A DNA stretch of 45,423 nt, taken from positions 1 through 45,423 of the forward strand of contig JAAXPZ010000027.1 of NCBI GenBank assembly GCA_012329065.1, in the 5' to 3' direction. This document shows, piece by piece, positions 39,659 through 45,423 of the stretch; the stretch's first letter is position 1, and the number at the start of each line of letters is the position of its first letter. The position numbers and the translations under genes are program-made. The notes under the pieces are model-generated. The model was not told the DNA's origin and did not search any database. It was given only the letters and a program-made list of their open reading frames with translations. This stretch comes from Sulfurovum sp. (GTDB lineage Bacteria > Campylobacterota > Campylobacteria > Campylobacterales > Sulfurovaceae).

Positions 39659-40834
39659 ATGGCAGGAGAGATGATAAGGTTTCTTGAGTCAGAGATTCTC
39701 AAGGGCAAACATTTTCCTGTCGGAAGCAGAGACAGACTCAGAGCCACACTAGTCAATCTTTTTATCTTGGTTGGTTCATTTGTCATCTTGCTTTATGCTT
39801 ATGAAAATATGGTTCAGGGCTATTATGGGATATTAGCTGTTGAGATGGTGATGGTACTAGTCTTGGTAATCGGATATCTCGTATTTCCTTATTATACCAA
39901 TATCGAACAGATCTCTTATATGATATTGGGTGCGTTGACTTTTTTGCTAGCGATTTCACTGGTACTTCCCGATAAAGATCCAGAACTTTCCATATTTTGG
40001 CTAGCATCACTTCCGATTTTTGTCTTTTATTTTTTGGGTGTTAGGAAAGGTATTGTTTGGAATGGATATATGTTTGTTATTTTGCTTATTGTGCCTTTAA
40101 TTTCTTTTGTAGCTGATGTTAAGTTCGTCTATACTTGGGAGCTGCTCTCTCAAATCATAGTGGGTTTTTTGATAGTCTCATATATGCTTTATATTATAGA
40201 AAAAGAGCGAAGCTCTTATGAACAGAGGCTCAATGTAGCCCTTAAAGAGAATACAATGCTCTTCAAAGAGGTACATCATCGCACCAAGAATAATATGCAG
40301 GTCATCATGGGGCTTCTAGAGTCACAATCATTCAAGATAGACGAGCCTAAATATAGAAAAATGTTTGAGGCACATATAAACCGCCTCAAAGCGATGAGCT
40401 TAATGCATAAAAATCTTTATTCAGAGCAAAATTTTGAGCAAGTAGATATCAAAAAATATCTCAGAGAGGTTATTAGCAGTTTACAGTTATATACAGAGCA
40501 TAAAATAGAATCAGACATAGATGAGATTATGATTGACATGAAAGATGCCATGAATATAGGATTAATCGTAAATGAAGCAGTAACTAATTCCATAGAGCAT
40601 GCCTTTGGAGGTGACAATGAGGGAAATATAGATATCTCACTCAAACACATAGGACACAGATGCTCATTGGCTATCAAGGACAACGGTAGAGGTTTTGACA
40701 CAGAAAAAACATATAAGTCTCTCGGTGTGACACTTATCAGAGATCTCAGTAGTACTCTTCATAATAGTGCTATTGTGCTGAGTGGCATATCTGGCACCTC
40801 CATAACAATATATTTTGACCTCAAGGAGTATTAA
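39659..40834 (+). CDS. Membrane histidine kinase of the HisKA_2 type
   Basis: A 391-residue sensor kinase. The first 185 residues hold about six transmembrane helices with very short loops, so any signal is probably sensed within the membrane. A short coiled coil (about 180-200) leads to the HisKA_2 phosphoacceptor motif EVHHRTKNNMQVIMGLL with H206. The HATPase_c domain has IVNEAVTNSIEHAF (N-box) and IKDNGRGFD (G-box). HisKA_2 kinases often pair with unusual regulators. Here the regulator gene starts two bases after the stop. The signal is unknown. Confidence 0.9.
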   Translation: MAGEMIRFLESEILKGKHFPVGSRDRLRATLVNLFILVGSFVILLYAYENMVQGYYGILAVEMVMVLVLVIGYLVFPYYTNIEQISYMILGALTFLLAISLVLPDKDPELSIFWLASLPIFVFYFLGVRKGIVWNGYMFVILLIVPLISFVADVKFVYTWELLSQIIVGFLIVSYMLYIIEKERSSYEQRLNVALKENTMLFKEVHHRTKNNMQVIMGLLESQSFKIDEPKYRKMFEAHINRLKAMSLMHKNLYSEQNFEQVDIKKYLREVISSLQLYTEHKIESDIDEIMIDMKDAMNIGLIVNEAVTNSIEHAFGGDNEGNIDISLKHIGHRCSLAIKDNGRGFDTEKTYKSLGVTLIRDLSSTLHNSAIVLSGISGTSITIYFDLKEY

Positions 40835-40835
40835 G

Positions 40836-41543
40836 ATGACTATGCCTAAAAGAATAGTAATAGTAGAAGACGAGGTAATCACTCAACGATTTCTTCAGGA
40901 TATTTTTGGACAATACGACACTACAATAGCAGGTTGCTTCGACAATGCAGGTGATGTGATGGCTAATATCAAAGACATGAAGTGTGATATGATTCTTATG
41001 GATATCAATATCAAGGGACCAGTAGATGGCATACAGCTTGCTAGGAAGATATTGGATAAGTATGAGATTCCTATCGTATTTATCACAGCACACAATGATG
41101 ATGAAACAGTAGAAGAGACGCTGGAGCTGTCTCCATATGGTTTTATCTGTAAACCTTTTACTAGCAAAGATGTCATAGTAACGATACAGATAGCTTATAA
41201 GCGTTATCTTGCCCATAACAAAGTACTTGAGGTAAAAGATGAAATAGCTACAAATCAAGACATAATAGTTAGTGAAAAGTACACTTATGTACAAGACGAT
41301 TCTCAACTCTATGAGGATGGAAAGCCTGTAGATCTGACCAAGAATCAACATATGTTAGTCAGCGTACTTATGCAAAATATCAATCAAACGGTTAGCTATG
41401 ACACTTTAGTTGCTACTATTTGGGGAGATACACCTATAGCAGATTCGGCACTTCGAACACTGGTTTATTCAGTTAGAAAGCTCTTACCAGCATTGCCTAT
41501 AGTCTCCCACAGTAAGATAGGGTACGCACTGGAGACCGAATAA
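40836..41543 (+). CDS. Response regulator with OmpR-like output domain
   Basis: A 235-residue regulator. The receiver (1-125) has acidic E11-D12, phosphoacceptor D56 (LMDINIKGPVDG) and K106 (CKPF). After a linker, the C-terminal part (about 155-235) reads as a winged helix of the OmpR/PhoB type: LTKNQHMLVSVLMQ, YDTLVATIWGD, LRTLVYSVRKLL and KIGYALE. I chose ATG 40836, seven bases after AAGGAG, rather than an upstream TTG inside the kinase gene. It is the last gene before the riboswitch-controlled exported protein, which makes that gene a candidate target (inference). Confidence 0.9.
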   Translation: MTMPKRIVIVEDEVITQRFLQDIFGQYDTTIAGCFDNAGDVMANIKDMKCDMILMDINIKGPVDGIQLARKILDKYEIPIVFITAHNDDETVEETLELSPYGFICKPFTSKDVIVTIQIAYKRYLAHNKVLEVKDEIATNQDIIVSEKYTYVQDDSQLYEDGKPVDLTKNQHMLVSVLMQNINQTVSYDTLVATIWGDTPIADSALRTLVYSVRKLLPALPIVSHSKIGYALETE

Positions 41544-41640
41544 ACCATCACATGAGCAGTGACTTTACAATTATATTAATAAAATAACACTTTTTTGACA
41601 TAATACTAATTTCTTAATATAAAATTTGACATTTTTATAT

Positions 41641-41646
41641 TATAAT
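41641..41646 (+). promoter_or_regulatory. -10 box for the riboswitch transcript
   Basis: A perfect TATAAT sits in a very AT-rich stretch, which would place the transcription start at about 41652-41654, directly before the riboswitch. TTGACA occurs at 41595 and 41626, but neither has the right spacing to this box. TTGACA 41595 with TATAAA 41618 (17-bp spacer) is a second possible promoter. Confidence 0.6.
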
Positions 41647-41654
41647 TATGAATT

Positions 41655-41750
41655 ATTTTGTAAAAGCCAAACCTTCTGAAAAGCTGGGACGGAAAGCCAC
41701 GGGTCGTATAGCTTTAGTTTAAAAGTGTTAGATAGCCGGGTTACTTTATA
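41655..41750 (+). ncRNA. Cyclic-di-GMP-I (GEMM-I) riboswitch
   Basis: The leader carries the conserved GEMM-I core in order: GCCAAACC (41666-41673), a hairpin with GAAA tetraloop (41678-41681), GGGACGGAAAGCC (41686-41698), a second hairpin after ACGGGTC, and ATAGCCGGGTTAC (41732-41744). This matches the Vibrio Vc2 aptamer element by element. The closing P1 stem would be short and AT-rich (around 41659-41665 with 41745-41750). By my alignment the ligand-contacting residue before CCAAACC is G (41666), which favours c-di-GMP over cyclic GMP-AMP, and its partner C is at 41744. There is no terminator before the gene, so control is more likely translational. The first hairpin has two internal mismatches. 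Confidence 0.9.
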
Positions 41751-41773
41751 TTTGAGTAATAAGGATTATAATT

Positions 41774-44700
41774 ATGAAACACATCAAGCAATGGATAAAA
41801 GTTTTTACACTTTTACTACTTTCAACACTTTTTGGAACTACGGCATTACAAGCGGTAGATATTCCCCTAGATAACACTATTGCAAAAATTAATGGTGATG
41901 GTAATCTAGCTACATGTAGTACAGGAGATACCTATAGGCTAGGTACAACTGCAACATATAATGGTCAAGCACTTGACATTTTACTTACTATTACTGCTAC
42001 AGACAATGAGTATCCTCTAATAAATCAAGGTGCGGGAGATTGTATAGGTGTTGATAGTGGGATACTTGAGACTCGACTTCGTGACAGATCTGGTGTTGCT
42101 GGATCTGGAAGTGATGCGGATACCATAGCATTTATGGATTTGCAGGTTTCTATAGTACAGCAAGGAATGACTACGCCCTTGGAGGTTGACAGGATAGTCT
42201 TTTCAGGATTTGACTTAGATACAAACGGTGTAGCCGACACAGCAGCTGTAAACTATACAGGAACAGATGATATTTATATGATAGCACCTAGTAGGGGCTA
42301 TATACAAGCTGGTGTATCCAATGTTGCGTATAGCGAGGGTAATTTTGGTGCAGGCTATAATGTGAAACTCAGGGGTCAAAATACAGGAAACTGTAATGAC
42401 TCGGCAACTAACCCAGATGCAGCTTGTCGTGGTGGTGGGATTGTTGTAGAAGGCACTAATGGTCCAAATAAAGTAACATTGGCAAATATAAGAGTCATAA
42501 ATGACAATGCATATGGAAATTATACTACAGATGCCGCAGCCCATAGATTGATTCAACTTTCATTTAAGGAAGTGGACTTTGAGAATATTCTTCAAAGCAG
42601 TATAGACCATGGAGATATACCTGCGTCATATGGCGATGCTTTTCATGCTGTATCAGTATATACAGTACTTGGTTATGGGTACCCTGCAGATAATGAAAAT
42701 GCACAAAATTCACTCAATGCAGATGCAGATGATAATCCAGATGTAGGAAACATTAATTTTGATGATGAAGATGGTGTACTTATAGGCAGTCAGCCAACAG
42801 TTGGTTCTGAGCTCAATATGACAGTCGGTTTTTCATATGACCTCAATGTAACAAGTATTGGAAATGGATTTTTAAGTGTTTGGATAGACCTCAATGGTGA
42901 TGGTGATTTTGATGATGCAGGAGAACAAATACTAACTGATCATGTTCTCTCAAGTGTTGTTGCCATTAATACGATTGTTCCCGTCACAATCCCTGTAGAT
43001 AATTATGTAGGGCAATCCTATGCACGATTTAGATTTTCAGAAAATGCAGGTGTTGCATCTTCTGGTAATGGAGGAAATGGTGAGGTTGAGGATTACACAG
43101 TATTCTTTAATCCCGCAGGTAATATCACGGGACATATTTATAATGATTTAAATGGGAATGGTACACAAGATGCAGGAGAGCCAGATTTGGCTAATGTAGA
43201 TGTGGTCATAACTGCTGCAAATAATGAAGTGCAAACTATTACTACTGATGTAAATGGTGATTATATTGCAACAGGCGTGGCTGTAGGTGATTCGTCGGTA
43301 GATATCGATGAGACGACACTACCGGTAGGTGCCAGCCAGACAGAAGGGACAGATCCTACCACGGTCTCTGTTAATGCAAATACGGATAATTTCGAAGAGA
43401 ACAATGGATTCAACATCCCTGGCGGGACACTTACTGGACACCTCTATAATGACCTAAACAACAACGGTACACAAGATGGTGCTGATACAAATATGGCCAA
43501 CGTAGATGTCAATGTAACAGATTCGGGTGGCAATACGCAGATTGTCTCAACAGATGCTAATGGTGATTATGTTGCTTATGGACTGCTTGGAGGAGATGTT
43601 ACGGTAACCATTGATGTGTTGGACCCAGATTTCCCTATAGGTGCTACTCAAACAGAAGGGACAAACCCTACTATCGTGAATATCGTTTTTGGGGCAACTA
43701 ATACAGAGGAGAACAATGGGTTTTATCAAGTTCCTCCTCCTGCAGGACAAGGAGAAGTCTGTTATGGGCTTTCAGACGGTTCAGATGAATTGGTTCTTTA
43801 TGATGCAGATAGTGCTACAGATACTATTATAGGTTCCAATAATGCACCAAATAATGATATTGAAACTATGGCATTCAATGTCGACCGTTCTGTACTATAT
43901 GCTTTTGATAAAGTAGACAATGGAGATGTGCAACTGGGTACTGTCAGTCAAACCGATGGGTCATTTACATTCATTGCAGGTGGTGTAGATGTAGATCAAG
44001 ATGGACAAGCTTCCGGTTCTGATGGCAATAAACGAATTAGAGATATCGATGCAATGGGATTTGACCCAGTTACGGGGAATCTATATGCTGCAGTGATTGA
44101 TGAGCGTGTGGGTAATGGAAATGAATTACTTATACAGGTGAATCCTACAACAGGAAAATTGGTTTATGATGCTTTTGGTGCGGGCGTGGACTATGTTGAA
44201 ATTGATACCAATGGGGCAGGTGTTCCGAATGATATTGATGATTTGGCTATAGATGCTGATGGTACAATGTATGCTAGCGCCAACAATAGTGGAGGAAACG
44301 ATAGACTTGTTATTATCAACAAAACTACCGGAGCAGTAACAGATCTGGGAAATTTCCATGATAGCTCCAATAATGCAGTTGAAGATTTAGAAGGAATGAC
44401 CTTTACACATGATGGCAGACTTTTTGTATCTAGTGGTACTACCAATATTATGTGGGAAGTAGATAAAGCAAATGGATTGTCTACACAGTTTGGGACATTT
44501 ACGAATGGTAGCGACTATGAAGGAATTGCATGTACCTACAAGAAAGGTGATATTTCAGGACATCTCTATAATGATTTAAATAGAAATGGAACACAAGACG
44601 CAGGTGAGCCAGACTTAGCCAATGTAGATATCGTTATTACCGATACTTTTGGTACCCCTACAACAGTGCAAACAGATGCAAACGGTAATTATCTGGCACA

Positions 44701-45423
44701 AGGCATATATGTAGGAAACGCATTGGTTAATATAGATGAAAATGACCCTGACTTTCCAACAGGGGCATTCCGAACAGAAGGGGGAGATCCAACCACTGTA
44801 ACAGTAGTGGCAGACACAAATACCTTTGAGGAAAACAATGGATTTAATATTCCAGGAACACTAACAGGGCATATTTATAATGACATCAATGGAAACGGTA
44901 CACAAGATGCAGGTGAACTGAATTTAGAAAATGTGACGGTAACTGTAACTGACTCAAATGGTGTGGACCATGTAGCATTGACAGGTGCAGATGGTAATTA
45001 TACGGTATCAAATCTTGGTGCAGGAAATGCAAGTGTAAACATCGATGAGAGTACTGTACTTGGCGGTACAGCTATACAAACAGAAGGAAGCAATCCGACA
45101 AATGTAACAATTGTTTCTGGTAATAATGTGGAAGAGAATAATGGATTCTTCGTACCAGCAACACTTAACGGTCACCTCTATAATGACTTAAATGGAAATG
45201 GTACACAAGATGTAGGTGAGCCAGATTTAGCTAATGTGGATGTGGTTGTTACTGATGCAAATGGTACAACACAAACTGTTACTACTGATGCAAATGGTGA
45301 CTACACAGCCACAGGATTAAGTGCAGGAGATGCTACAGCAGATATTGATGAAGCAACACTTCCAGCAGGTTCAGTACAAACAGAAGGTACAGACCCAACC
45401 ACAGTCACGATTGCTCCAGGTGC
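41774..45423 (+). CDS. Large exported repeat protein, putative adhesin (3' end outside window)
   Basis: An open frame of at least 1216 codons from ATG 41774 (AAGGAT seven bases upstream) runs to the window edge. A signal peptide (KQWIKVFTLLLLSTLFGTTA, cleavage after LQA near 27) marks it as exported. Residues 28-265 form an unassigned domain. About 270-445 is a GEVED domain, with SYGDAFHAV, DDEDGV, WIDLNGDGDFDDAGE and GEVEDY (436-441). Two SdrD_B/CnaB-like repeats follow (450-655). A segment without repeats (about 655-925, with VLYAFDK, NLYAAVID, TMYASANN and RLFVSSGT) looks like a beta-propeller. Three more repeats run to the edge. Repeats carry EF-hand-like DLNGNGTQDAGE loops, a likely calcium site. 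No anchoring or secretion domain is visible yet. Confidence 0.88.
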   Translation, partial: MKHIKQWIKVFTLLLLSTLFGTTALQAVDIPLDNTIAKINGDGNLATCSTGDTYRLGTTATYNGQALDILLTITATDNEYPLINQGAGDCIGVDSGILETRLRDRSGVAGSGSDADTIAFMDLQVSIVQQGMTTPLEVDRIVFSGFDLDTNGVADTAAVNYTGTDDIYMIAPSRGYIQAGVSNVAYSEGNFGAGYNVKLRGQNTGNCNDSATNPDAACRGGGIVVEGTNGPNKVTLANIRVINDNAYGNYTTDAAAHRLIQLSFKEVDFENILQSSIDHGDIPASYGDAFHAVSVYTVLGYGYPADNENAQNSLNADADDNPDVGNINFDDEDGVLIGSQPTVGSELNMTVGFSYDLNVTSIGNGFLSVWIDLNGDGDFDDAGEQILTDHVLSSVVAINTIVPVTIPVDNYVGQSYARFRFSENAGVASSGNGGNGEVEDYTVFFNPAGNITGHIYNDLNGNGTQDAGEPDLANVDVVITAANNEVQTITTDVNGDYIATGVAVGDSSVDIDETTLPVGASQTEGTDPTTVSVNANTDNFEENNGFNIPGGTLTGHLYNDLNNNGTQDGADTNMANVDVNVTDSGGNTQIVSTDANGDYVAYGLLGGDVTVTIDVLDPDFPIGATQTEGTNPTIVNIVFGATNTEENNGFYQVPPPAGQGEVCYGLSDGSDELVLYDADSATDTIIGSNNAPNNDIETMAFNVDRSVLYAFDKVDNGDVQLGTVSQTDGSFTFIAGGVDVDQDGQASGSDGNKRIRDIDAMGFDPVTGNLYAAVIDERVGNGNELLIQVNPTTGKLVYDAFGAGVDYVEIDTNGAGVPNDIDDLAIDADGTMYASANNSGGNDRLVIINKTTGAVTDLGNFHDSSNNAVEDLEGMTFTHDGRLFVSSGTTNIMWEVDKANGLSTQFGTFTNGSDYEGIACTYKKGDISGHLYNDLNRNGTQDAGEPDLANVDIVITDTFGTPTTVQTDANGNYLAQGIYVGNALVNIDENDPDFPTGAFRTEGGDPTTVTVVADTNTFEENNGFNIPGTLTGHIYNDINGNGTQDAGELNLENVTVTVTDSNGVDHVALTGADGNYTVSNLGAGNASVNIDESTVLGGTAIQTEGSNPTNVTIVSGNNVEENNGFFVPATLNGHLYNDLNGNGTQDVGEPDLANVDVVVTDANGTTQTVTTDANGDYTATGLSAGDATADIDEATLPAGSVQTEGTDPTTVTIAPG
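43121..45423 (+). repeat. Five visible ~300-bp SdrD_B/CnaB-type coding repeats
   Basis: Repeats begin at 43121, 43427, 44549, 44858 and 45161; the last is cut by the window edge. Full units are about 300-310 bp (100-103 residues). Each starts with GH(I/L)YNDLN-x-NGTQD, has a D-x-NG-(D/N)Y motif in the middle and ends with QTEG-x-(D/N)PT and EENNGF. DNA identity between units is high enough for recombination to add or remove copies. A non-repeat segment (about 43740-44548) separates the second and third units. Confidence 0.9.

Follow-up and report, generated by a model that had tools for sequence, protein, structure and literature searches.

We found that a c-di-GMP-I (GEMM-I) riboswitch aptamer forms part of the 5' leader of an adhesin-like gene in Sulfurovum, and on balance we read this leader as a translational ON switch. 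The DNA analyzed here, called the window, is 45,423 nt long and is the whole of contig C49. According to this model, the transcript would begin just 5' of the aptamer. When c-di-GMP is low, the aptamer's 3' strand, with the ligand-contacting base C92, would be able to pair across the ribosome-binding site or beside it. Binding of c-di-GMP would keep this strand within the aptamer and open the ribosome site, and the surface protein would be made. The control point would be translation initiation. We infer the attachment function, the ligand, the translational level, and the ON direction of the switch from the evidence described below.

An earlier note on this DNA claimed a GEMM-I core and proposed a covariance-model search for it. 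We found a significant match to RF01051 (c-di-GMP-I, GEMM-I) at 41656 to 41748 on the forward strand, with a score of 61.4 bits (E, 9.9e-10) against a curated cutoff of 35 bits. The alignment spans all 87 model positions and thus covers a full-length aptamer, and RF01051 was the sole Rfam match in the window. The note had also named G41666 and C41744 as key bases, and rightly so. G41666 (RF01051 model position 11) is the equivalent of G20, a ligand contact and the selectivity position, and C41744 aligns with C92. Together with A41693, the equivalent of the ligand-stacking A47, they form the canonical c-di-GMP triplet G20/A47/C92. G20 and A47 were invariant in all 77 parsed aptamers, and among 32 aligned Campylobacterota aptamers we found compensatory changes at 11 of the 18 consensus pairs.

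A second model of the same clan, RF03167 (c-di-GMP-I-GGC), also matched the aptamer. In a local search of 601 bases it scored 59.0 bits (E, 2.2e-13), exactly at its cutoff of 59 bits, and it ranked ahead of RF01051 by E value both there and for several orthologues. The RF03167 consensus has a G at position 47 (GACGC-G-AA), which in our reading is what "GGC" in its name refers to. This discriminating base, which separates the aptamer from the GGC model, is an A in the window and in 77 of 77 parsed relatives. We therefore dropped the RF03167 assignment and filed the element as plain c-di-GMP-I. Beside the ligand pocket, 76 of the 77 parsed aptamers have a C-G pair in place of G-C. We considered this inverted pair as a marker of Campylobacterota and dropped it, because scans of viral contigs gave nearly equal numbers (14, versus 17 for the G-C form). 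A plasmid search with the aptamer returned two weak partial matches.

The gene that follows the aptamer (41774 to 45421, forward strand) encodes an exported adhesin-like repeat protein. Its translation starts with a signal-peptide-like N terminus, and Pfam models matched one GEVED domain and five stretches of SdrD_B. The open reading frame runs on to the contig end, with 1,216+ amino acids readable. The description of this product as a giant exported repeat protein stood in part: it is large, exported, and made of repeats, whereas "giant" is plausible for a gene that is cut at this length but is not borne out by it. Campylobacterota had been named as the origin of the DNA, and the named relatives of the protein, which come from Sulfurovum and Campylobacteraceae metagenome-assembled genomes, agree with this and with placement in the Sulfurovaceae.

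We then compared homologues with at least 42% identity for which both the N terminus and the upstream DNA were available. There were nine of these (three in the source genome, G000, and the others in G002, G074, G083, G099, G105, and G124), and in all nine an aptamer lies close before the start codon. We found no aptamer before the more distant homologues of another genus (L161 to L168) or before L160. The two paralogues of the window protein in the same genome, on contigs C37 and C67, are under GEMM-I. On C67, a gene for a long repeat protein (L033, 2 to 2206, forward strand; at least 734 amino acids) ends just 5' of a second riboswitch-adhesin unit; adhesin genes may adjoin one another and break the assembly. 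In a complete relative, G063, a different repeat protein, of 2,086 amino acids, follows a riboswitch. Its C terminus has a hydrophobic stretch followed by arginines, which suggests a membrane-anchored protein, and an NCBIfam search found no anchor model in that C terminus.

The aptamer lies on the same strand as the gene, in its leader. It ends 12 nt before the Shine-Dalgarno sequence AAGGA (41761 to 41765, forward strand, by direct reading) and 25 nt before the start codon, ATG at 41774. Direct reading also gave a promoter candidate at 41626 to 41646 on the forward strand, with TTGACA at 41626 to 41631 and the -10 box TATAAT at 41641 to 41646. This places the aptamer 3' of a -10 box and 5' of the start codon, as had been noted before. 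The gap between the two boxes is 9 nt in the window, and the usual gap is 16 to 18 nt. We found -10-like TANNAT boxes just 5' of 41 of 78 aptamers, compared to 25.1 (standard deviation, 4.0) in shuffles, an enrichment that is consistent with transcription starting just 5' of the aptamers. A second promoter match (10 of 12 positions) at 41745 to 41772 overlaps the ribosome-binding site. RNA made from it would begin after the ATG at 41774 and therefore could not use this start codon.

The short promoter spacing recurs elsewhere. TTGAC occurs 9 to 11 nt 5' of TATAAT-like boxes before 9 of 78 GEMM-I leaders, versus 0.29 in shuffles; examples are the window boxes (41626 to 41646) and G000:C43:43088-43108. 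Genome-wide, we counted 18 cases of this spacing versus 5 in a reversed control, and 31 versus 4 for the usual spacing of 16 to 18. On the same strand as the riboswitch, the region directly 5' of it encodes a histidine kinase of the MASE6 type together with a response regulator (39659 to 41543, forward strand).

We found no intrinsic terminator in the 25-nt stretch between the aptamer and the gene. Because of this, and because the stretch is so short, control is most likely exerted at translation. Within the leader, GUUACUU (41740 to 41746) can pair with GAGUAAU (41754 to 41760). In folding, this gives a possible competing hairpin at 41740 to 41760 on the forward strand (-4.3 kcal/mol), which takes in C92 and stops immediately 5' of the Shine-Dalgarno sequence. 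Across seven independent adhesin leaders, the complementarity of the aptamer 3' strand to the region of the ribosome-binding site was greater than that in shuffles (Fisher P = 9e-4), and the window leader alone gave a P value of 0.15. Four control aptamer segments showed no raised complementarity to the same region (0.46 to 0.96). We found no enrichment over 18 mixed short leaders (P = 0.75). We therefore dropped the idea that such pairing of the C92 strand is general in short leaders and kept it as modest support within the adhesin set only. The G099 and G002 leaders are without the competing pairing. In a rough accessibility model, closure of the aptamer raised the accessibility of the window Shine-Dalgarno sequence from 0.64 to 0.92. 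The change on closure was mixed in relatives, and access fell in G105, G099, and G002. Taken together, the relatives give modest support to the ON direction, the window leader alone gives little, and the mixed short leaders give none.

The same c-di-GMP riboswitch might instead turn the gene OFF, with the ligand-bound aptamer so near the Shine-Dalgarno sequence that the ribosome is hindered and with the free RNA being translated. We consider this rather unlikely. The 12-nt distance would suit such hindrance, as would the fall in modeled access in those three relatives, but in the window modeled access rises, in the adhesin leaders the C92 strand is complementary to the ribosome-binding site, and c-di-GMP usually promotes adhesion. 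GEMM-I switches of both signs exist (PMC6366702). Among relatives, the GEMM-I leader before a SpaA-type surface protein in G359 and G443 (L144 and L146), read by eye, resembles an OFF switch: the aptamer's CCGGGUU can base-pair with AACCCGG, and a GUAGGGUAAC/GUUACCCAC terminator and a U run follow. When long leaders were searched automatically for terminators, the outcome was mixed.

It is also conceivable, though quite improbable, that the aptamer in the window has decayed and no longer switches, while its relatives still do. The source is a draft genome, the closing helix of the window aptamer is very weak, and its GAAA-loop helix has two non-pairing positions (U41674/U41685 and U41675/C41684). 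Against decay, all ligand contacts are intact in an aptamer that still scores 61.4 bits, and the linkage of aptamer and gene is conserved across relatives.

For the ON switch that we favor, c-di-GMP is the likely ligand, judging from the aptamer and the cyclase sequences. We expect c-di-GMP because of the G20, A47, and C92 identities, because the parsed GGDEF domains carry Asp, and because cGAMP binding by GEMM-I is studied with the G20A change (PMC6274999). The natural cGAMP aptamer has an A (A14) in place of G20 (PMC6274999), and this GEMM-Ib mark is absent from the window aptamer. The source genome has 13 GGDEF matches. Six of them could be parsed at the base-contact site, and all six have the Asp of the diguanylate cyclase type and not the Ser of cGAMP-making Hypr enzymes (PMC6456294). 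Sensing of a different cyclic dinucleotide, for example cGAMP, is very improbable: the lower RF03167 E values and the C-G pair beside the pocket, given that lower P2 changes can alter selectivity (PMC9262584), would leave room for it, but G20 with the other two identities, the parsed GGDEF domains, and a relative with a GGDEF-EAL gene under the same riboswitch class all disfavor it.

The earlier note had pictured a switch that acts on one structural gene. In contrast, the source genome (1.94 Mb in 82 contigs, estimated to be 100% complete) holds eight GEMM-I copies, all above the cutoff, and the regulon is family-wide. Within the genus, each of the five genomes carries between 4 and 9 copies. 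At least one copy was found in 106 of 175 genomes of the family, with up to 21 per genome, and in 43 of 397 sampled high-quality Campylobacterota genomes, from 14 of 69 genera. None of 14 control genomes had a match.

In the source genome, the targets are the window protein and its two paralogues, a CAP-domain lipoprotein, a lipoprotein with a DUF1501 neighbor, a broken PilJ-domain gene, and a secreted protein encoded two genes before a NIT hybrid histidine kinase; another copy lies 262 nt 5' of pdxJ. In relatives, GEMM-I precedes genes for PilJ and PAS proteins, an NIT-CZB chemoreceptor, and an NIT histidine kinase; for a prepilin peptidase, a GGDEF-EAL enzyme, a subtilase, and an L,D-transpeptidase; and for an ABC transporter, an outer-membrane barrel, and surface proteins of the DUF1800 and SpaA/SdrD_B types. 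These types make up the usual list of GEMM genes.

Several of these loci showed features of their own. The PilJ-domain gene under GEMM-I in the source genome (L034, G000:C43, 7300 to 8065, forward strand) is broken near its start, where it runs out of frame and into stops, and it is open in G002, G004, and G063. The GGDEF-EAL gene (L126, G097:C1, 1056 to 2960, reverse strand) lies 40 nt 3' of a GEMM-I aptamer, and c-di-GMP could possibly feed back there onto its own turnover. Tandem aptamers about 70 nt apart precede a subtilase gene and genes for DUF4382-type lipoproteins (L113 and L114 in G097 and L019 in G003:C465). Between the aptamer and pdxJ (L035, G000:C81, 630 to 1040, reverse strand) lies a conserved noncoding stretch, which also occurs at L025 (G002), L011 (G004), and L187 (G001). 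It contains a long hairpin, CCAGCAUAAUAUU/AAUAUUAUGCUGG, around a run of 7 to 9 C residues, with a compensatory U-A-to-C-G change in relatives. Its fold z-scores were -4.3 and -5.4 in two genomes and -0.5 in a third, where the stretch is cut. An exact-pattern search did not find the hairpin stretch outside the genus. It may be a small RNA under c-di-GMP control or else a second element of the leader.

For the family, we would only tentatively propose a large c-di-GMP RNA regulon of up to 21 GEMM-I copies per genome that switches the attached lifestyle. It would act on adhesins via translation, on other genes via terminators, and, in the window's genus, also via a noncoding RNA that has a poly-C loop, follows a riboswitch, and lies 5' of pdxJ. 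If these switches are functional, they would tie surface attachment in sulfur oxidizers of the Sulfurovum type directly and testably to c-di-GMP, and the family offers many natural GEMM-I leaders to compare. What makes the element interesting is the regulon and the unstudied phylum, more than any novelty of mechanism. We found no study of c-di-GMP riboswitches in Campylobacterota in the open-access literature, subscription papers being mostly outside the scope of that search, and Rfam may already list RF01051 matches from the phylum. In C. jejuni, its best-studied member, a transcriptome study showed only a TPP riboswitch (PMC3847290).

That a GEMM-I switch can control an adhesin directly is already known in principle, from Vc1-gbpA (PMC4744006) and Bc2-cap (PMC6366702). 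What is new here is the phylum, the family-wide scale, and the type of target protein, not the mechanism. The Vc1 riboswitch of Vibrio cholerae activates gbpA (PMC4744006) and does so other than by transcription termination (PMC4744006, PMC6366702). As in Sulfurovum, where the attachment role is putative, a c-di-GMP-I aptamer stands in the leader of an attachment gene; positive control without transcription termination is known for Vc1 and predicted for Sulfurovum. The two differ in phylum and in product, GbpA being a chitin-binding colonization factor and not an SdrD_B/GEVED repeat protein. The Bc2 riboswitch of cap in Bacillus thuringiensis is a c-di-GMP-I ON switch for a collagen adhesion protein (PMC6366702). 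Like the switch proposed for Sulfurovum, it controls an adhesin gene directly, but Bc2 works by transcription read-through, whereas the Sulfurovum leader has no terminator. In Clostridioides difficile, c-di-GMP-II switches turn on the predicted adhesins CD630_28310 and CD630_32460 (PMC6366702). These likewise pair a c-di-GMP riboswitch with a predicted adhesin, but their class II aptamers have an unrelated fold and their proteins are sortase anchored. Finally, the GEMM-Ib riboswitches of Geobacter (PMC8835794, PMC6456294) have a related aptamer in many copies per genome, some of them in tandem. They sense cGAMP made by a Hypr GGDEF enzyme, whereas G20 and the canonical GGDEF domains of Sulfurovum point to c-di-GMP.
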